64,000 nucleotides of DNA from Streptomyces sp. Je 1-332 (GTDB lineage Bacteria; Actinomycetota; Actinomycetes; Streptomycetales; Streptomycetaceae). Positions 15,656 to 26,137 of this stretch are shown piece by piece; within the stretch, counting starts at the first letter, position 1, and every line of letters starts with the position of its first letter. A model generated the notes under the pieces. It saw nothing but the letters and a program-made list of their open reading frames with translations, was not told where the DNA came from and ran no database searches. Made by a program: the position numbers and the translations under genes. Where the stretch lies: positions 7,192,001 through 7,256,000 of the forward strand of contig NZ_CP160402.1 in the NCBI RefSeq assembly GCF_040730185.1, read 5' to 3'.

Positions 15656-15915
15656 ACCGTCCTCCCGAACGGACGTTGTGCGTGCTGGCCTGGGCGTTGG
15701 CGTCGTGCGCGCATCCACGTTATGCAGACCTGCCGCCTGCGAAGGACCGGGCATTGCGCTCGGCCGGGCGGTAGTCGGACCTCTCATCAGCGTCTCCAAC
15801 GGCGCCTCTCGGGCCCGGTGGCACCACCCCCCAGGTCATCGCTTCGACAGGGGGGACCAGCCATGCCGGGCCCGGAGGCCAGCGGCCCTCTTGCAGGACC
15901 GCGGAAAACATAACG
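15656..15915 (-). ncRNA. Candidate IS110 bridge RNA region
   Basis: The only sizeable noncoding part of the IS110 element is the approximately 260 bases upstream of its transposase. In IS110-group elements this end encodes a structured bridge RNA with target- and donor-binding loops. No gene is present in the stretch and G/C-rich complementary patches exist. I have not folded it; the call is by position and family knowledge. Confidence 0.4.
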
Positions 15916-16641
15916 GGGGGGTGGGCGGTGACGCCGGTGATGTGGAGTCTGCGGGTGCCGTGTTCGAGGAACGCCAGCGCGTACAGCCGGCTGCCGGTGA
16001 TCGTGTCGACGTGGAAGAAGTCCGCCGCGATGATCCCCTCGGCCTGCGCGGTGAGGAACTCGCGCCAGCTCGGGCCGGTGCGGCGAGGGGCGGGGGCGAT
16101 GCCGGCCTTGTGCAGGATCTCCCAGACCGTGGACGGCGCGATCGGGTGCCCCAGTTGGGCCAGTTCGCCCTGGATCCGCCGGTGGCCCCACCGCGAATTC
16201 TCCTGCGCCAGGCGCAACACCAGCTTCTTGAGCGGGGCCGCCGTGGGTGGACGCCCGGTGCGTCGGCGTCGGTCGGAGTAGTCCCACTCCTTGGCGATCA
16301 GCCTGCGGTGCCAGGCCAGTAGCGTCCCCGGTGTGACCGCGAAGACGCTGCTCCAGCAGCGGCGCGGTATCAGCGACGACAGCGCGGCCAGCCAGAACCG
16401 GTCCGCGGGCTCGTAGCGGACCGGACCGCTGAGTTGTCGTCGCAACACCGAGTTTTCGTGCTGCAGCACCAGTAGTTCGGCGTCCTTGGCCGTGTCCCGG
16501 CGCAGCAGGACCGCGGGGATGGGCAGCAGCGCCCGGGTGGCCCGGTACAGCATCGAGATGATCACACGCGCAGCACCCCAGCTATCGCGGAGGGCCTGGC
16601 ACGTAGGCTCCCACCTGCAGCGATGACTTTACGAGCCCCAC

Positions 16642-16988: not shown

Positions 16989-18287
16989 TCACGGCGCGGG
17001 GTTACTGGGCACCTTCACGTTCATCTCGCCGCAGCCGACGCGCTTCGCCTCCGCCTTGACGTACGAGGGCAGAACGGCAAGGGCGAGTGACTTGTCGTCG
17101 TGCGACTCGCTTTCCTTCCCCGGCTCATACGCCACGAACGCGACCCGCCGGGACCGGCAGTCCGCCGCGTAGACGCTCAGGCCGCCCGCGTAGGCGCCCT
17201 GCCCGTCACCGCCGAGACGCGTGGCCCGATTTCCGAGCACCCGGGAGACAACGCCGGCCAGCTCCGGGTCCGCCACGGTCATCAGCCGGAGCCTGCTCGG
17301 GCCGAAGGGCTGCCGCACGTCGCACGCCCGGATTCCGTCCGCAGAAGACGCGCCTGGCTTCGTGCCCGGCGTGGTGCCTACGACCTCCGCCTCGGACCCC
17401 TGAGCCCACCTGGGCAGTCGGACGCCCTGGATCCCGCAGAGCCGGTCGACGTCGACGTCCGGCAGCTCGTTGCCCTCCGGGGCGCGTCGGAGCTTCGGCG
17501 GGTCGGAGTACGGGCTGTCGCAGCCGTATCGTTCCATGACCCCGTTGGCCAACCGCACGACCGCGCGGGACATCGCGTCGAGGCCCCGCCGCGCGTCGAC
17601 CTCGTTCTGGCCCTCTGGGTCAGCCGCTTCCGAAGCGAGGGTGACCACCCGCAACGGCGGCTTCTCGCCCGGCTCGTACGAGCGTTCCTCACAGCTCGCG
17701 GGGAGCGCCACCCAAGCCCGGGTGGAGGAAGCCATGCCGGTGATCCCCTCGCCGAGCGGCGTCATCCGGGAGGAGAGGTACTCCTCGGTCCAGCTCCATG
17801 CCTGTGCGCCCCGCAACTCGCCCAGCGTCCGCACCGACGCCGTGACCTCAGACTCCAACTCGTCGTCCCCGAACCCCTGCATGCTGCACTCCGTGTGCAT
17901 GTGGTCCTCTGTGGCCCGCCGCAGCGGCAGCTCACGGCTGCGGACGTCCGTGTCCGAGAACAGGGCGTGCTCGACATCGGGCGAGAGCGAACCCCAGCAC
18001 ACGTCCCGCGCCACGAAGGGCAGTTCATTGGAGCGCCACGCCATGACGCCTGACCCCAGCAGCGCCCCGACGAGCGCGCCGATGACAGCGATGCCACTCC
18101 GGCTACGGGACAGACGGCGCATCCGGCCCGGGCGCTCCGGCGGGGAAGGCCGGGGGGCGGGGGCCTGCCGTAGGGGCCCATCCACCTCGGGGGTCTCGGG
18201 CCCAGAGTTGGCCATCTTGGAGCTCTCCGGCCCGGTGCTCTCCATCCCTGGAGCCCCCGGCGCGGTGCTTTCCGGTTCGTCCGGCAT
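16989..18287 (-). CDS. Hypothetical membrane-anchored protein with extracytoplasmic domain
   Basis: A 432-residue protein. Residues 1-60 are hydrophilic and rich in Pro, Glu and Ser; a single membrane segment (SGIAVIGALVGALLGSGVMAW) follows near residue 70. About 340 residues are predicted outside the cell, containing several cysteines (DVCWGSL, HTECSMQGF, ASCEERSY, YGCDSP, RLCGIQG, ADCRSRR) likely to pair. No catalytic motif was recognised; similar single-pass proteins occur in Streptomyces without assigned function. ATG 18287 is chosen because GGAAGGA lies 5-6 bases upstream. It is the only intact non-mobile gene in the insertion-sequence zone. Confidence 0.72.
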   Translation of the reverse strand: MPDEPESTAPGAPGMESTGPESSKMANSGPETPEVDGPLRQAPAPRPSPPERPGRMRRLSRSRSGIAVIGALVGALLGSGVMAWRSNELPFVARDVCWGSLSPDVEHALFSDTDVRSRELPLRRATEDHMHTECSMQGFGDDELESEVTASVRTLGELRGAQAWSWTEEYLSSRMTPLGEGITGMASSTRAWVALPASCEERSYEPGEKPPLRVVTLASEAADPEGQNEVDARRGLDAMSRAVVRLANGVMERYGCDSPYSDPPKLRRAPEGNELPDVDVDRLCGIQGVRLPRWAQGSEAEVVGTTPGTKPGASSADGIRACDVRQPFGPSRLRLMTVADPELAGVVSRVLGNRATRLGGDGQGAYAGGLSVYAADCRSRRVAFVAYEPGKESESHDDKSLALAVLPSYVKAEAKRVGCGEMNVKVPSNPAP

Positions 18288-18555
18288 CTCGTCCTTCCTC
18301 TCGGGGGCTGTCCTGGCGATCCGCGCGGCCCCACGGCCGGGTAACCGAGTCGTTGGGTATCGGTGACGGACCGCCTCCCCACTCGTCACCGACGGTCCGA
18401 GGAGGTTATCTGTCGGGTACACGCGTTCGGGGAGCAGGGCAGCCTCGCGGAGATGGAGCGATGGCGATGCCTTCACGGGCCCGACGCTCGGGCCCGACGG
18501 AGTTCGCGCAGCCGACGTGGCGCGGACTTCGGATTGCTGCGGGCCGAGTCAAGGA

Positions 18556-18642
18556 CCCAAGCCGTTCATCTGGACCAAGACAGCCCAAGAGATCCTCGAC
18601 GCCCTCGCCCGCTTCTGCCGACGAATCTCCGGCGCAGGACAA
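18556..18642 (+). pseudogene. C-terminal scrap of an IS630-family transposase
   Basis: A plus-strand frame reads KPFIWTKTAQEILDALARFC then RRISGAG. This matches the extreme C-terminus of IS630-type transposases, where an F(I/V)WTKTA(D/E) segment is followed by an RRISGAG-like end. Nothing upstream resembles the catalytic domain. It abuts the far fragment of the AAA ATPase pseudogene, so it marks another deletion or insertion event at this junction. Confidence 0.5.
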
Positions 18643-18807
18643 CGGACAGGAAGTTCGCGCCTAGGCCGTGTCTGATGGATCTTTCCCGGCTCCTGATAGA
18701 TCGGTGAGTCGTGTGCTCCGGGGTTGCGGCAGGGTGCCGGCCGCGTCGTCTGAAGGGGCGGCCATGATGGTGCCGAGTAACAGCAACTCCGACGAAGGCG
18801 GCATGAC

Positions 18808-19113
18808 ATGGCCTATGGCTACATCGGTTCGATGAAGACCCAGCCCGGCAAGCGCGACGACGTGGTTGCGATCCTGCTGTCCGGAGCCGATAGCCTCCGC
18901 GACCTTGGCTGCAGAAGCTACGTGGTGGGCCTGGCCGCCGATGCCCCGGACACGATCGTGGTCACTGAGGTCTGGGAATCTAAGGATCACCACGACGCAT
19001 CCCTGCGGTTGCCCGAGGCCAAGGAAGCGATCGCTGCCGCCATGCCCATGCTCACCGGCGAGTTCACCAGTCGCGAACTGGTTGTCGCCGGCGGCCTCGG
19101 CGCTGGTGACTGA
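18808..19113 (+). CDS. Antibiotic biosynthesis monooxygenase (ABM)-fold protein, IS5 passenger
   Basis: A 101-residue dimeric ferredoxin-like-fold protein of the ABM/YgiN type. Strand 1 is AYGYIGSMKTQPGKRDDVVA, followed by a helix AILLSGADSL, then CRSYVVGLAADAPDTIVV and TEVWESKDHHDASL, where the VTEVWES-K-H pattern is the family hallmark. Family members are cofactor-free quinol oxygenases or stress proteins. ATG 18808 has GAAGG about 9 bases upstream. It sits between the left inverted repeat and the transposase of the IS5 element, pointing toward the transposase. An intact frame suggests it is maintained or recently acquired. Confidence 0.8.
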   Translation: MAYGYIGSMKTQPGKRDDVVAILLSGADSLRDLGCRSYVVGLAADAPDTIVVTEVWESKDHHDASLRLPEAKEAIAAAMPMLTGEFTSRELVVAGGLGAGD

Positions 19114-19117
19114 TGCC

Positions 19118-19974
19118 TCATGGTTTTAGCCAGAGGAAGATGGCTGCGACATGGAGTGCGGCCTGATAATTCGTGGCGAGTTTGTCGGTACGCATGGCAA
19201 TGCCGCGCCATTGCTTGAGCCGGTTGATGCAGCGTTCGACAGCGTTGCGGAGGCGGTAAGCATCACGATCGAGCGCGACCGGGCGGCCGCCGCGTGGGCC
19301 GCGGCGCTTCCGGTTGGCCTGCTGGTCAGCGGGTTCGAGGATGACCGCGCGGATTCCGCGCCTGCGCAAGTGGGCGCGGATCGCCCGAGATGAGTAGGCG
19401 CGGTCGGCGAGCACGGTGTCGGGACGGACACGAGGTCGACCGACTGGGCGCGGGACACGGATAGCGGCCATGACACGCTCGAACTGCGGTGCGTCACCCG
19501 CTTGTCCGGCGGTGACTACGAAAGCGATCGGGCGGCATCGGCCGTCGGCGGCCAGGTGGACTTTCGTGCTCAGTCCGCCGCGGGATCGGCCGAGAGCGTG
19601 GTCGTGCGGTTCACCGGCCGGAGCCCCCTTTTCGCGGCACCGGCGGCGTGCTGGTGGGCGCGGACGACCGTGGAATCGACGCCAACAAGCCAGTCCAGAT
19701 CGCCATCCGCGTCCGCGCGGGCCTGCAAAGCGACGAGGACGCGGTGCCAGGTGCCATCGCGGGCCCAACGGGTGAACCGGTCAAACACCGTCTGCCAGGG
19801 AGGGCACTCGTCCGGCAAGTCACGCCAGGCGAGGTTGTTGCGGTACTTGAACGCCACCGCGTCGATGACCCGCCGGTGATCCGTCCACCGCCCGCCCCGA
19901 CGAGGCGTCCGGTCCGGTAGTAGCGGCTCGATCAGTCTCCAATGGCCATCGCTCAGGCCCCCACGAACACTCAC
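19118..19974 (-). CDS. IS5-family transposase, two frames joined by -1 frameshifting
   Basis: Frame A starts GTG 19974 and runs to 19570: LSDGHWRLIEPLLPD, RWTDHRRVIDAVAFKYRNN, FTRWARDGTWHRVL and DSTVVRAHQHAAGAAK. Frame B (to 19118) continues KGAPAGEPHDHALGRSRGGL, STKVHLAADG, DTVLADRAYSSRAIRAHLR, the DDE glutamate region RNAVERCINRLKQWRGIA, and ends FLWLKP. The frames overlap at an AAAAGGGGG slippery run (19624-19632), the usual arrangement in the IS427 group. All domains are intact, giving about 285 residues after a -1 shift. The element could still be active. Confidence 0.85.
19624..19632 (-). other. Programmed -1 frameshift site of IS5 transposase
   Basis: Minus-strand AAAAGGGGG. Frame A reads GCG AAA AGG GGG; slipping back one base gives AAG GGG GCT, joining AHQHAAGAAK to KGAPAGEPHD. 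Both flanks match contiguous transposase sequence, so the shift occurs here. Confidence 0.7.
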
Positions 19975-20672
19975 ACCACACTAAAACGACCACCTGATCC
20001 ACCAGACACGGCCTAGCTCCCCGGCGATGGCGCGGGCGATGAGGGTCGTGCCGCAGCCGGGCGGGCCGTACGGGAGCAGTCCGCCGCGCAGGCTCTTGCC
20101 GTACAGCTTGCGCAGTTCCGGGTTGCGCATCGGGGCCAGGAAGGAGGTTTCGAGGCGTTCCTTGACTTCCTGTATGCCGCCGACGTCGGCGAGTCGCACG
20201 GTGCCGGGCGCGCCATCTCCCATGCTGCGGCATCGCCGGGGTCGAGGTCGCCGCTGCCGTCGGCGGCCAGCGGCGCCTCGGCCGGGGACGGCGTGCTCTC
20301 GAGGAACCGGGGCGGGACGAGGTCGCCGACTTCCTCCTCGGCGGCCGTCCAGTCGAAGCCGTTCTGGGGCTGGTGCTGGGGAGGGGGCGCCCGGCTCTGC
20401 GGGGCAGGTGCGCCCATGGCGCTGGTCATGAGGTTGCGTACCTGCGCATCGGCCGGCGCGTGCTGCAGGGCGACAGCGGCTTCGGTGATCGCCGCGTCAT
20501 TGTTGCCCTGCGTCCAGCAGCATGTCGGCGAGGTGTACGCGCAGCGGTACGTCGGCGGGGGCCGACGCGACGGCTGTGCGCAGGCTCTGGATCGGAGGGG
20601 ATTCCTCCGGCATGGTCGATTCTCTGTGTTGGTGGTGGCTGGGGTGGTCCGGCGTTTGTTGTTCGTCCTGGT

Positions 20673-22115
20673 TCACCGAGGTGACCTGGTCGGCCCTGGA
20701 GTGGCCTTGAGGTGTTCGGTGAGCTGCTGGAGGGTGGTCCAGGCTTCGGCGTCTGTGTTGTCGCCCAAGGGGTAATGGAGTGCGGGGTGGCTGGTGGTGC
20801 CGAGCTGGGTGGGGCGGAGGTTGAGCGGTGGGCGGCGGGCGTGGGAGAGGCCGATGTCGTTTACCTCGGAGGGGCCCAGGGTGAACGCGGTGGGGATGGG
20901 CGGGGCCTCGAATTGCGGGGGGATGGTCAGGTCTCGGCGGGCGCGGCGTACGGAGGTGAGCATGGTGGTCAGGCCGTGCTCGGTGATGAGGGTTTCCGCG
21001 AGGGCCTCGATGCTGTCCAGGGGCGGGGCTGTGTCTTCGCCGTAGCCGAGGGCGAGGGTGGTGTCTTGGGCGATGCCAGTTGCGGTGCGGGAGATGCGGA
21101 GGGTGGCGATGGCCGGGCGGTCGGGGTGGCCGATGGCGAGGATGTGGGTGGGTTCGGGGGCGCGCCCTCGGGCCAGTTCGGTCAACTGGCGGGTGGACCA
21201 GGGGAGATTGATGGGTTCAGCTGGGCCCCAGCCGGTGGGCGGTGTGCCGGCGAGGCGGTGCCAGGCAGTCTCGAGGGGGCGGCCGAGGATGAGGTCTTCA
21301 TCGGCATCGTGGTGGGTGCGCAGGGAGACGATGAGCTGGCGCTCGGTGCCGATTCCGGGCTGGGTGAAGGGCGCTGCGACGGTGGCTTGGCCGTCGGCGG
21401 TGAGGGCGGGGGCGAAGGTGCCGTCCTGCCAGCGCAGCACGGCGCCGGAGAGGCCGTCGTAGTAGCCGCAGTCGGGGTGTTGGATGACCCATCGGTTGGG
21501 GGCGCCGGTCAGGGCTGTGCGCAGGGGCAGGCTGAGGCGGGCGTGGTGTGGGGTGACGATGTGCAGGGCGCGGCCGGATGCGGTGGTCGCGCGCAGGATG
21601 TCGGACAGCCAGGCAGTCAGGGGGATGACGGGGCGATCGGCGATGACGACGGCGGTGGAGTCGGTGAGTACGTCGACTGCCGGCAGGGCTCCGTCGGGCG
21701 CGGGGTGTGCGGTGACGGCTTTGTCCGCGTCGTCGGGGGTGGGGATGACCTGGGTGGTGGCCGCGGAGGGAGGCCATGTGGTGCCGCCGAGGAGGGTGGT
21801 GAGGCGGCCGCAGAGAGAACCCGCGAGAGGTTCGGCTTCGGGGACGGCGGTGGAGGCACGGGCCTCGGTCCACCAGAACGGGGCCCCCGGGTCGGGGGCT
21901 TCGCTGCCCAGCAGGCGCTGGGCTTCACTCGGGAGGTGGACCAGAAGCGGGGCTTCGACGGAAACGAGTGGGCGGCCTGCGGGATTACGGAGCTGGATGA
22001 CCGCGCCTTCGTGCGCCGTTCCCACGTCGAGGTCGGGGCCGCCCGCGTACAGGCCTGCCAGGAGAGCCCAGGTATCGGGCATCTGAGGGGTGAGGGCGAT
22101 GACGTCCTTGGTCAC
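20673..22115 (-). CDS. DUF6177 family protein (type VII secretion locus)
   Basis: A 480-residue soluble protein starting TKDVIALTPQMPDTWALLAG, the recognisable DUF6177 N-terminus from Streptomyces type VII loci. Further segments are SVEAPLLVHLPSEAQRLLG, FWWTEARAS and VIADRPVIPLTAWLSDILRA. No catalytic motif was seen, and the function is unknown. GTG 22115 overlaps the EccC stop by four bases (GTGA), so it is translationally coupled to the secretion ATPase and probably serves the same machine. It is the last intact gene of the locus; the AAA ATPase pseudogene follows after about 60 bases. Confidence 0.8.
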   Translation of the reverse strand: MTKDVIALTPQMPDTWALLAGLYAGGPDLDVGTAHEGAVIQLRNPAGRPLVSVEAPLLVHLPSEAQRLLGSEAPDPGAPFWWTEARASTAVPEAEPLAGSLCGRLTTLLGGTTWPPSAATTQVIPTPDDADKAVTAHPAPDGALPAVDVLTDSTAVVIADRPVIPLTAWLSDILRATTASGRALHIVTPHHARLSLPLRTALTGAPNRWVIQHPDCGYYDGLSGAVLRWQDGTFAPALTADGQATVAAPFTQPGIGTERQLIVSLRTHHDADEDLILGRPLETAWHRLAGTPPTGWGPAEPINLPWSTRQLTELARGRAPEPTHILAIGHPDRPAIATLRISRTATGIAQDTTLALGYGEDTAPPLDSIEALAETLITEHGLTTMLTSVRRARRDLTIPPQFEAPPIPTAFTLGPSEVNDIGLSHARRPPLNLRPTQLGTTSHPALHYPLGDNTDAEAWTTLQQLTEHLKATPGPTRSPR

Positions 22116-25100
22116 GGGTGTCGTGTCTCTTCCGGTGCTTCGGCGTCTTCGCTGTGGTGGGCGAGGGCGGTCTGGATGAGCTGGTGGCGGCGGCCGCGGC
22201 GGACCAGGGTGCCGCGTCCTGGGGGTTGGGTGGAGGCGTAGAGGCCGGGGAAGAGTTGGCCCTCGGTGCGGTCGCCGGTCATGAGGAGGGCGGTGGTGCC
22301 GGTTTCGCGCAGGGTGGTGAGGAAGGGTTCGTACAGGGCGCGGGAGGATCCGGCGACGCGGCGGGTGACGATGAAGTGCAGGCCGATGTCCTGGGCGGAG
22401 GAGATGTAGGGCAGGAAGGGTGCCAGGGGTTGCTGGCCCGCGGTAGTGAGGATGTCGTAGTCGTCGACGAGGATCACGATCCGGGGCCCGGTGAACGAGG
22501 GTCCCTCGGTGATGGCGTCCGGGTCGGCGGTCTCCGGCATGCGCTTTTCCAGTTCGCCCGCGATACCGGTGGCCAGGGCGCCGGCGAGTTTGGCGTTGTG
22601 GGCGTAGCCGCCGCGGTAGGGCTCGGGGACGACGCCGCGCAGGCCGCGGCGCGGGTCGAAGACGCCGAAGACCAGGTCCTTGTCGCCGTAGCGGTCCATC
22701 AGTTGCTGGGTGATCAGTTTCAGCAGATTGGTCTTGCCGCATTCGTTGTCGCCGAGGATCAGCAGGTGCTGGTCCTGGCCGGTCAGGTCCAGGAAGGCCG
22801 GGGCGAGGGCGTCCTGGTCGACGCCGAGCGGGATGCGCGAGGGCTCGGCGGTGACCGAGGGCAGCTTCGCGGCGGGCAGGGCGGTGGGCAGGACCCTGAC
22901 GGGTGCGGCCAGTTCTCCATGCCAGGTGGCACGGACGGCTTGGGCGGCGTCCTGTAGGGCCGGGCCGAGGTCGCCGATGGTCGGCCGGCCGTCGATGCGG
23001 GGCAGGGCGGTGTGGGCGAAGAGTTTGGCGTCGGTGAGGATGCGGCCCGGGGTGTCCGCGGCCAGTGTCTCGGAGAGTTTGCGGTCGATGCTGGAGTCGG
23101 AGGGGTCGTTCAGGCGCAGTTCGACGCGGGTGCCGAACATCGACTGGGTGGCGATGCGTACGTCGTTCCAGCGCAGCATGCCCGCCACGATGTGGATGCC
23201 GTAGCCGCTACCGCGTTTGAGGAGGTCGGCGACGGTGTCGTCGAGCTCGGAGAACTCGTCGCGCAGGGCGCCGAATCCGTCGATGAGCAGCACGATGTCG
23301 GTCGAGCCCAGTTCGGTCAGCCGGCCCTGGGCGCGCAGGTGGCGTAGCTGGTCGACCGAGTCGATGCCGTGTTCGCGGAAGAGCTCCTCGCGCAGGGCGA
23401 GTTGGGTGCGGACCTCGGCGACGGTGCGGGCGGCCCGCTCGTGGTCGGCCCGGCCCGCGATGCCGCCCACGTGCGGCAGCCCGGACAGTGCGGTCAGGCC
23501 GCCGCCGACAAGGTCGAGGCCGTAGACGGCGACCTGGTGCGGGGTGTGGGTCAGGGCCAGGGACAGTGCGAGGGTACGTAGCAGGGTGGTCTTGCCGGAC
23601 TGCGGGCCGCCGATGACGGCGGCGTGTCCGCCGGCGACGGTCAGGTCCAGGGTCCAGGGTTTTTGCCACTGCTTGGCTGGATCGTCGAGGACGCCCAGGG
23701 GTATCTGCATGGCGCCGGTGGAGGTGGCGAGGTGCAGGCCGCGCTCAGAGGCCTGTACGGGTCCGGCGGCGGCGTCGAGCGAGATCGCGTCGGGCAGTGG
23801 CGGCAGCCAGATGCGGCGGACCGGAGGGGCGGCTGTGCACAGCTGGTCGACCATGGCCGTCAGGACGGTCGGGCCGGTCTCCCGCTCCCGCATCGCGGGT
23901 TCTTCGGGCGCGCCGGTGGTGGGGTCCTGGCCTGTGTTGAAGGTGGGGTAGGTCCAGGCGAGGGGTTCGGCGTCGGTCTGCTCGCGCAGGGCCGGGCCGC
24001 GGTAGGCACCGGAGACGTAGCCCGCCTTGAAGCGTTCGTAGGTGGAGGTGTCGACTTTGAGGTAGCCGAAGCCCGGCAGTGGCGGGAGGTGGAAGGCGTC
24101 CACGGCGTCCAGGACGGTGCGTGACTCGTCGGCGGAGAAGGTACGCAGAGCCAGGCGATAGGAGAGGTAGGTCTCCAGACCCTTGAGCTTGCCGCCCTCG
24201 ATGCGCTGGCTGGAGAGCAGCAGGTGCACGCCGATCGAGCGGCCGATGCGGCCGATGGACAGGAACAGGTCGATGAAGTCCGGCTTGGCGGTGAGGAGTT
24301 CACCGAATTCGTCGATGACGACGAACAGGTGGGGGAGCGCCTCCAGAGCGAGTTCGGGCTGCTTGGCGCGCAGGGCGGCGTAGTGGCCGATGTCGGCGAC
24401 GTTGCCGGCGTCCTTGAGGACCTGCTGGCGGCGTTTGACCTCGCCGGCCAGGCTGGAGTGGACGCGCTCGACGAGGCCTGCCTGGTTCTCCAGATTGGTG
24501 ATGACACCTGCGACATGCGGCAGTTCGGTGAAGGGGGCGAAGGTGGCGCCGCCCTTGTAGTCGACCAGGACGAGGGCGAGGTCTTCGGGGGAGTGGGTGG
24601 CGGCCAGGGCCAGGACGAGGGTGCGCAGGAGTTCGCTCTTGCCGGAGCCGGTTGCGCCGACGCACAGGCCGTGCGGGCCCATGCCCAGTTCGGAGGACTC
24701 CTTGAGGTCGAGGAGGACGGGTTCGTGGCGGTCGTTGAGGCCGATGGGCACGCGCAGGAAGTCGCGTTCGCCGCGTGGCGCCCACAGCCTGTCGAGGTCC
24801 AGGGCGGCCGGGTCATCGATACCCAGGAGGGCGGGGAAGTCCACCGGCCCGGAGACCGGCGTGCCCTCCGTGGCCGATTCCGCCGACAACCGCAGCGGGG
24901 CCAGCAAGCGTGCCAGCCCTTCCGCACCCGCCACGCTCAGTTCATCCGATGTTCCCTGCGCGGCTCGGAGATGGGGGACGCGCAGGTCCTCGACGGTGAC
25001 CTGGTCGGCGTCGACGGTGATCCGCACGCTCACCTCATCCGGCTCGTGCACCTGCTGCTCCAGCAGGTGCAGCACCGTCACACCCATGTCGGCCAGCCCG

Positions 25101-26137
25101 ACCGTCGCGTCGGGGCGCGGCAGCTCGACGGCGTTCTCTCTGTATGCATCGCTGATCACGACGAGCCGGTCGGTGAGCTTCAGCGCGTCCTTGCCGGAAA
25201 GACCGCGCCGTACCTCAGCCGCGTACGACGCTCGTCGCCGCAGGTCTGGGCCGATGAGCCGGGCCAGCTGAGGTAGATCCGGCGCGATCCGCCGGCCTGC
25301 AACAGGGGCACCGTTCCCCTCGCCGACCTCGTCACCCAGGACGTGAGGCAGCCACTTCGCCCACTCCCACTCGGGAAGCCGGTCGCCAGGCACCCCTAGG
25401 GCGATGGCCACATCGTCCGGCGCGTGGGTGACGGCAGCCTGGGCCAGCACCGCACGGGCCACATTCAGCACAGCCTCGCGCTCTCCGACAATGCTGACGT
25501 TCCCGACCCGGTCGAGCGGCACCGTCAGCGGACAGTCCGCCGTCACGGCGAAACGCGCCTGCAGAGCGCGGGCCTCATTCAGCATGAACGGATCAGGCGG
25601 GGTCAGCACACCGCCGGCCGTGTCCTGTCCGATCGCCAGGTCCTGCACGGGTACGTCTCCGGCACCCACTCGCACGCGCAGGAAGTCCGCATCCGCACGC
25701 CGCCGTTCCCACAACCGGGCCGGATCACGCACCAGGTCATACAACGCCAGCGGCGCCGGAGACAGCAGACGGGCTCTCGCCCGCCGCTCGCGCTCTATTG
25801 CCCCCAACTCCTCGCGCTGCTCCTCCAGATACTCCAGATACCGCTCTCGCTGTGTACGCCGGGTTCGCTGGGCCTTGCCCCGCTGCGACAGGAACAGAGC
25901 CACCGCGGCCAGCAATGCGAAGACAAGGACGATCGCGCCGATGGCGGCGAACTGGCTGTTACGGATCACGGTCATCATCACCACCGATCCCATGACACCG
26001 GCCATCGGCAGCAGCGCGGTCGCCGCACTGCCCATCTTGCCCTCGGGCAGATTCGGCGGCGGCTCGATGGTCCGCGGCTCGGCCGGGGCCAGAGGGCGGG
26101 TGGAGCGGGCCGGGCGGTGGACAAGATGCTGAGTCAT
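22112..26137 (-). CDS. eccC: Type VII secretion protein EccC (three FtsK/SpoIIIE ATPase domains)
   Basis: The motor of the ESX-like system, 1341 residues, a fused EccCa-EccCb form of usual length. Two membrane segments occur near residues 40-85 (ATALLPMAGVMGSVVMMTVI; GAIVLVFALLAAVALFL). ATPase 1 has GATGSGKS (Lys500) with Walker B FVVIDEFGEL. ATPase 2 has GGPQSGKTT (Lys849) and VLLIDGFGAL. ATPase 3 has GDNECGKTN (Lys1135) and IVILVDDYDIL. The WXG100 substrate binds the last domain in this family. ATG 26137 overlaps the upstream ATPase gene by four bases. All three P-loops are canonical, so the motor looks intact even though parts of the locus are missing. Confidence 0.95.
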   Translation of the reverse strand: MTQHLVHRPARSTRPLAPAEPRTIEPPPNLPEGKMGSAATALLPMAGVMGSVVMMTVIRNSQFAAIGAIVLVFALLAAVALFLSQRGKAQRTRRTQRERYLEYLEEQREELGAIERERRARARLLSPAPLALYDLVRDPARLWERRRADADFLRVRVGAGDVPVQDLAIGQDTAGGVLTPPDPFMLNEARALQARFAVTADCPLTVPLDRVGNVSIVGEREAVLNVARAVLAQAAVTHAPDDVAIALGVPGDRLPEWEWAKWLPHVLGDEVGEGNGAPVAGRRIAPDLPQLARLIGPDLRRRASYAAEVRRGLSGKDALKLTDRLVVISDAYRENAVELPRPDATVGLADMGVTVLHLLEQQVHEPDEVSVRITVDADQVTVEDLRVPHLRAAQGTSDELSVAGAEGLARLLAPLRLSAESATEGTPVSGPVDFPALLGIDDPAALDLDRLWAPRGERDFLRVPIGLNDRHEPVLLDLKESSELGMGPHGLCVGATGSGKSELLRTLVLALAATHSPEDLALVLVDYKGGATFAPFTELPHVAGVITNLENQAGLVERVHSSLAGEVKRRQQVLKDAGNVADIGHYAALRAKQPELALEALPHLFVVIDEFGELLTAKPDFIDLFLSIGRIGRSIGVHLLLSSQRIEGGKLKGLETYLSYRLALRTFSADESRTVLDAVDAFHLPPLPGFGYLKVDTSTYERFKAGYVSGAYRGPALREQTDAEPLAWTYPTFNTGQDPTTGAPEEPAMRERETGPTVLTAMVDQLCTAAPPVRRIWLPPLPDAISLDAAAGPVQASERGLHLATSTGAMQIPLGVLDDPAKQWQKPWTLDLTVAGGHAAVIGGPQSGKTTLLRTLALSLALTHTPHQVAVYGLDLVGGGLTALSGLPHVGGIAGRADHERAARTVAEVRTQLALREELFREHGIDSVDQLRHLRAQGRLTELGSTDIVLLIDGFGALRDEFSELDDTVADLLKRGSGYGIHIVAGMLRWNDVRIATQSMFGTRVELRLNDPSDSSIDRKLSETLAADTPGRILTDAKLFAHTALPRIDGRPTIGDLGPALQDAAQAVRATWHGELAAPVRVLPTALPAAKLPSVTAEPSRIPLGVDQDALAPAFLDLTGQDQHLLILGDNECGKTNLLKLITQQLMDRYGDKDLVFGVFDPRRGLRGVVPEPYRGGYAHNAKLAGALATGIAGELEKRMPETADPDAITEGPSFTGPRIVILVDDYDILTTAGQQPLAPFLPYISSAQDIGLHFIVTRRVAGSSRALYEPFLTTLRETGTTALLMTGDRTEGQLFPGLYASTQPPGRGTLVRRGRRHQLIQTALAHHSEDAEAPEETRHP

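Follow-up and report, generated by a model that had tools for sequence, protein, structure and literature searches.

An IS5-family element of Streptomyces that encloses an ABM-domain gene looks like a transporter insertion sequence

Insertion sequences (ISs) are usually thought to carry only what their movement needs. IS derivatives with passenger genes are named transporter ISs (tIS) in the available parts of two sources (PMC3129680, PMC9330008), and the available part of a third describes ISDsp3, a single-copy tIS of the IS6 family with a gene for a hypothetical protein (PMC7986276). Elements of the IS427 group, as described in the accessible text of PMC3281130, are 832-865 bp long, have inverted repeats of 13-21 bp, mostly possess a frameshift motif, and generate 2-bp duplications (one element has 4 bp). 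On the side of the passenger, the accessible text of PMC6689052 deals with ABM proteins of polyketide clusters, among them ActVA-Orf6, which is a monooxygenase, and a protein whose role in fidelity is non-catalytic.

Here we analyze an element in the window, i.e., the whole 64,000-nucleotide stretch of Streptomyces sp. Je 1-332 DNA under study, in which the close reading and the frame listing covered positions 17600-21200. The features, in window coordinates, are as follows.

18662..18663, left copy of the TA target duplication
18664..18681, plus strand, left (outer) terminal inverted repeat, GGCCGTGTCTGATGGATC; counterparts in the decayed copy L140 and, at 14/18, in the remnant L082
18682..18807, plus strand, ABM upstream region carried along
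18808..19113, plus strand, passenger gene for a 101-aa ABM-domain protein, quinol-monooxygenase-like (PF03992, E 2.4e-13)
19110..19123, plus strand, junction of the passenger and the 3' end of the transposase, 14 nt, 11/14 to CTGATGGATCAGGG (inner part of the IS left end)
19118..19768, minus strand, transposase frame B, DDE domain (DDE_Tnp_1, E 1e-17); the same two-frame layout is found in the passenger-free sibling L085
19570..19974, minus strand, transposase frame A, DUF4096 N-terminal part (DUF4096, E 5.7e-25)
19625..19634, minus strand, presumed -1 frameshift site, CGAAAAGGGG; L085 counterpart GCAAAAAGGGG
19996..20013, minus strand, right terminal inverted repeat, GGCCGTGTCTGGTGGATC (reverse strand)
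20014..20015, right copy of the TA target duplication
20016..20223, minus strand, AAA ATPase gene, part before the insertion (PF00004, E 8.3e-5; homologs; empty-site join)

The segment 18664-20013 is a single insertion of 1350 bp, bounded by inverted ends and by TA on either side. The 18-bp ends are identical at 17 of 18 positions, with one mismatch, and a repeat search extends them to 21 nt at 95% once the flanking CTA is counted in. When up to three mismatches were allowed, the end pattern occurred in the window exclusively at the two ends of the element, both with 0 mismatches; as many matches were obtained in 4 of 100 shuffles. The element is preceded by ...CGCCTA and followed by TAGCTC..., which indicates that the target was CTAG and that TA was duplicated. 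Joined with one TA, the flanks restore an empty site that reads in a single frame, ...ARAIAGELGANFLSV (...LIARAIAGELGANFLSV; minus-strand join ...VRLADVGGIQEVKERLETSFLAPMRNPELRKLYGKSLRGGLLPYGPPGCGTTLIARAIAGELGANFLSV). The best matches to the interrupted AAA gene in other genomes (L130-L138, n = 9) are all uninterrupted at the insertion point, where they read GELGA[NSA]F[LM][ST][VI]. The joined flanks fit all nine of these relatives, thus indicating that the insertion is real and precise.

The rest of the AAA gene, downstream of the insertion, lies to the left of 18662. This host gene is dead for reasons besides the insertion; it is otherwise damaged in that T replaces the Walker lysine (GPPGCGTT), and the sequence abandons the AAA alignment after FLSV. 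At 18520-18661, past FLSV, the gene is no longer recognizable and the opposite strand reads KPFIWTKTAQEILDALARFCRRISG. The KPFIWTKTA motif in this debris left of 18662 is presumably the C-terminus of an IS630-type transposase; a Pfam search of the debris gave no match above the cut-off. Further to the left, a transposase-like ORF on the minus strand (15720-16565) weakly matches HTH_21, HTH_32 and HTH_Tnp_Tc3_2, a further sign of mobile-element debris nearby. On the other side, the minus-strand region 20673-26137, which adjoins the broken AAA gene, encodes a DUF6177 protein and an FtsK/SpoIIIE ATPase of 1341 aa, in which three stretches were matched; we take the ATPase to be EccC-like, and the region is possibly part of a type-VII-secretion-like cluster.

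The NCBIfam model NF033580, 'IS5 family transposase', recognizes the two halves of the transposase at 115 and 149 bits, with a cut-off of 110. An A-run/G-run motif and the same relation of the frames are common to the window element and L085, which suggests programmed -1 frameshifting; the transposase would be made in this way and is probably active. In the part encoded by frame B only, dS between the window element and L085 is 1.08 and dN is 0.14, which means that the transposase has been under constraint. The element resembles the IS427 group, as the accessible text of PMC3281130 presents it, in the overlap of its two transposase frames, in their frameshift motif, in the 2-bp duplication and in the length of the inverted repeats; the two frames with their motif and the TA duplication are found in both the window and L085. 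It differs from that group (832-865 bp) in its length of 1350 bp and in its passenger; L085, the bare sibling, measures 912 bp.

At E 0.001, 449 homologs of the passenger protein were found. Among solved structures, PDB 4dn9 is the closest in sequence (E 7.3e-21 with the single sequence, 4.9e-25 with a profile), and the profile also matches E. coli YgiN (PDB 1tuv, 1r6y; E 9e-5), with whose ABM domain the predicted protein agrees. Close homologs bear the database name 'putative quinol monooxygenase', which is an annotation and no evidence of function. As compared to 4dn9, YgiN and the polyketide-cluster proteins in the accessible text of PMC6689052, the Pfam domain is the same, but here there is neither a substrate nor a cluster context. 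The protein may oxidise or bind quinol- or polyketide-like aromatics and thereby occasionally give the host an advantage, in which case the gene could outlive its vehicle. A detoxifying or stress role, as considered in the sequence-only reading, is hypothetical. The ABM and transposase genes are convergent, tail to tail, with 4 bp between their stops (19113 and 19118), so that ABM transcription may run antisense into the transposase. From about 18720, the region upstream of the passenger is common to several ABM relatives that bear no trace of this IS. A consensus scan found neither a promoter nor a terminator, and no sigma-70-like site in the upstream region 18682-18807. A known regulatory RNA in the ABM leader was considered and rejected (no Rfam match, fold z -0.31). 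As the ABM gene carries an upstream region of its own, it may be expressed at the landing site.

The sequence-only reading had recognized an IS5-family element with an intact passenger, and the NF033580 and PF03992 matches inside a bounded insertion bear this out. Its borders, 18664-20013, prove right by the near-identical ends, the TA on both sides and the empty-site join, and the AAA frame, said to resume from GEL to GANFLSV across the insert, does so in agreement with the nine relatives. The frameshift-type IS5 transposase was found as described, as two minus-strand frames that both exceed the NF033580 cut-off, and so was the complete 101-residue gene of the ABM fold (PF03992), convergent with the transposase and four bases away from it.

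The origin of the passenger segment can be judged by comparison with L085 (genome G199), the nearest whole-IS sibling found among the matches listed for 392 genus genomes. This locus has no passenger: it is 912 bp long, has TA on both sides, and is 75% identical to element positions 443-1350. Its left end, GGGCGTGTCTGATGGATC, lies at the transposase stop, and its right end at position 207. The passenger-free L085 indicates that about 440 bp carrying the ABM gene were gained by the window element. L085 is a sibling and not the parent of the latter.

Like a tIS, as far as the partly available sources define it, the element encodes one transposase of IS type, and its short ends, likewise of IS type, enclose a gene that is not related to transposition. 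The inverted ends stand at both borders together with a target duplication, the ABM gene lies inside them and is absent from L085, and, as judged from the sequence, the unit recurs with the same ends at an unrelated site, in the decayed L140, where the left TA reads CA. Compared with ISDsp3 in the available part of PMC7986276, the family here is IS5, the passenger is an ABM gene, and a second bounded copy as well as remnants exist elsewhere. A composite transposon likewise mobilises a host gene by means of IS ends; unlike it, our element has one IS body, with no second IS copy flanking the gene. No IS5-family tIS with an ABM gene was found in the listed titles and abstract openings of the open-access literature, a weak negative, as ISfinder and most subscription papers lie outside this scope. 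The earlier remark that no description of this combination was known is fair for IS5 with ABM, but a passenger-bearing IS as such is a named kind, the tIS, already in the available parts of PMC3129680, PMC9330008 and PMC7986276. The element therefore looks like a tIS that is driven by an IS5-family transposase and carries an ABM gene, its kind being known and this combination apparently new. With a probability of about 0.87, we consider that an IS5-family (IS427-group-like) element captured the ABM gene with its upstream region and moved as a unit between its outer ends by means of the single DDE transposase it encodes, inserting at CTAG with duplication of TA.

The second bounded copy, L140 (genome G718), is 72% identical to element positions 1-500 and 85% identical to positions 1170-1350, and possesses both outer ends and the same ABM-transposase junction as the window. 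Its right flank is TA and its left flank CA, and it sits at the TAG stop codon of an unrelated 409-aa ORF. Its transposase is mostly lost, and its ABM frame is broken by insertions. The presence of both ends and the same junction at an unrelated site shows that the window unit is no one-off. A 12-nt stretch, CCGCACGGGTTC, occurs on both sides of the decayed unit (L140 positions 1301-1312 and 2083-2094), bordering directly on the TA-like flank at one end, whereas some 18 nt intervene at the other; it may be due to chance or to an older duplication.

Four further loci bear parts of the unit. In L033 (S. coelicoflavus), the ABM gene is intact (101 aa) and leads into the window-type junction; the alignment with the window extends over 72 nt from the ABM stop, of which the last 58 or so are the transposase end. 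In L034, which comes from a Streptomyces MAG and is identical in sequence to G451/L077, an open ABM gene of 100 aa is fused to 61 nt of transposase sequence. The transposase pieces of both loci resemble the window element much more closely than 44 other IS loci (94 vs. at most 54 for L033, 87 vs. at most 34 for L034; 0/2000 shuffles in each case), and inverted-repeat patterns were looked for in the two loci and not found. In L079 (genome G211), the ABM gene is open and the junction matches that of L140 (0/5000 shuffles); against the window, its junction score was reached by 84/2000 single-base shuffles and by 0/5000 dinucleotide-block shuffles, and no transposase was found by tblastn. L079 is the weakest remnant, and its case depends on the comparison with L140. 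L082 (genome G454) has a left end-like stretch at the right place, with 14/18 matches, and half an ABM gene, truncated with a stop; a score of 14 was reached by 3 of 5973 control segments, which may include the site itself. Beyond +14, the ABM 3' flank matches the L140 junction in the window, L033 and L079 (0/5000 shuffles each) and shows no such match in L034, L035-L039 and L080 (516-4887/5000).

Taken together, two of the six unit-bearing loci, the window and L140, are bounded at both ends, and a comparison of the flanks of all six gave no match between loci, either in DNA (E 1e-5) or in protein (E 1e-8). Among the five remnants, three (L033, L034, L079) have an open ABM gene with little or nothing left of the transposase, and two (L082, L140) have a broken one; among the copies found, both genes are complete in the window only. 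The sequence-only reading had looked to the same two-gene unit at several unrelated sites, with repeats and TA, for support. This has been obtained in part, since L140 is fully bounded but decayed, with TA/CA flanks, and L033, L034, L079 and L082 are partial. Passenger-free copies with ends at about 19115 had been thought to make the passenger accidental; L085 is such a copy, but rather than an accident it shows a gain, the enlarged unit then being found at other sites.

The ABM gene also occurs without this IS, at seven solo loci (L035, L036, L037, L038, L039, L074 and L080). The first six are 84-92% identical over the aligned ABM stretch, and L080 was found by DNA, at 88%; L035 is the same as L078, L039 the same as L081, and L037 the same as L139 (G742), identical over 3333 bases. 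No piece of this transposase was detected beside any of the seven (blastn E 1e-3, tblastn E 1e-2). The seven lie in different Streptomyces with mostly unrelated flanks, several of them having a conserved upstream stretch of about 90 nt. As exceptions, L035 and L080 have some flank in common, and one downstream gene is common to L033 and L037; it was set aside as evidence because its orientations are opposite. The close ABM cassette is patchily distributed, in at least 7 of 392 genus genomes including the own one (E below 1e-95), with half of it in G454. In the ABM tree, from which L140 and L074 were left out, the window stands beside L033 and L082, although support is weak (67 and 43), and the star-like shape of the tree does not decide whether the IS-linked genes are one clade.

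The scatter of the gene is thus not all explained by the unit. The ABM gene could have spread otherwise, as a frequently transferred chromosomal gene or as a cassette of its own which the IS joined secondarily, so that the tIS would account for few sites. The solo loci with their mostly unrelated flanks and the weak inner support of the star-like tree speak for such a spread, which we regard as a possible, though not the probable, course of events. It leaves the bounded copies unexplained, and no alternative vehicle is visible in the flanks, which were searched for traces of this IS. It is, however, compatible with the tIS explanation rather than exclusive of it.

The passenger might also be a passive hitch-hiker of no benefit to element or host. 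The broken ABM genes of L082 and L140 are in line with this, and so is the weaker depletion of nonsynonymous changes in pairs with L079 (P 0.005-0.04; omega 0.33-0.58). In contrast, the ABM gene is open in the window, L033 and L034, in the last two of which the transposase is a scrap, and the changes among these three are mostly silent: 7.5 of 23 are nonsynonymous between the window and L033 (P 6e-5), 6 of 17 between the window and L034 (P 6e-4) and 10 of 25 between L033 and L034 (P 2e-4), in each case below the neutral expectation. If the capture was single, this divergence postdates it, which argues that the passenger has been of use for at least some of the time; mere hitch-hiking appears doubtful to us.

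Searches for further copies were extended to other genomes and replicons. In its own genome, the whole unit occurs once (one full match and two partial ones at 66-67% among the best 40 of 143 candidates), and this single copy gives no sign of recent activity there. No second intact unit was found among the matches listed for 199 relatives or 392 genus genomes, nor, at a cut-off of E 1e-40, in two sets of 296 relatives (of G454 and of G211) or in 345 family genomes; these sets overlap, the two best candidates per genome were scored, and the counts are lower bounds. With at most one mismatch, the end pattern was present in 21/392 genomes, including the window's and G199, and a backwards control pattern also matched in several. 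The whole element had matches in 333 plasmid records, none covering 80% of it among the matches listed; the ABM protein matched 10 plasmid records, all at less than 60% identity; and 27 pattern matches in viral contigs included no relative. A one-off chimera, in which an IS5 picked up a neighbouring gene in a single aberrant transposition and had no later life as a unit, would agree with the one complete copy, single in its own genome, and with the lack of any match in 50,697 phage records and, for the left half, in 72,556 plasmid records, but is highly improbable, being largely refuted by L140 with its outer ends and junction and by the parts of the same unit in L033, L034, L079 and L082.

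Returning to the tIS reading, the stop region of the ABM gene provides a hint of how the capture might have occurred. It reads CTGATGCCTCATGG in the window, CTGATGCATCACGG in L033 and CTGACGGATCACGG in L036, as against CTGATGGATCAGGG at the left end of the bare IS. At least 11 of 14 positions agree with the IS left end in 5 of 44 ABM loci (window, L033, L036, L037, L039), always at the same place, and 7-8 of 14 in L034, L035, L038, L079 and L080; in the control, 11 or more were reached by 24 of 20430 segments, which can include the sites themselves. Either the motif is a worn inner IS end, which would place the ABM gene between two left ends in direct orientation, or it belongs to the gene's native 3' flank, which resembles the end and served as a crossover point; its presence in L036, L037 and L039, all without transposase, leaves room for both origins. 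The simplest route, we infer, is capture via a collapsed pair of IS copies around the ABM gene. The starting pair would consist of an IS end on the upstream side of a chromosomal ABM gene and a copy of the IS on its downstream side; this would be reduced to outer left end, ABM gene, transposase and right end, with loss of the working inner left end; and the frameshifted transposase would then bind the two outer ends and insert the 1350-bp unit at CTAG.

A more tentative proposal, on which we would not insist, is that a minimal IS5-type element, having captured the gene by recombination at the short stretch in which the IS left end resembles the stop region, seeded this oxygenase-like gene into several Streptomyces lineages, where the hosts kept the gene while the transposase rotted; in other words, a passenger was perhaps domesticated from a tIS. 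Here the donor gene family can be compared with a sibling that lacks the passenger, with two bounded copies, of which one is intact and the other decayed, and with partial scars; this series makes the steps from a plain IS to a gene-carrying element, and from the latter to a gene left in the host, testable within one genus.
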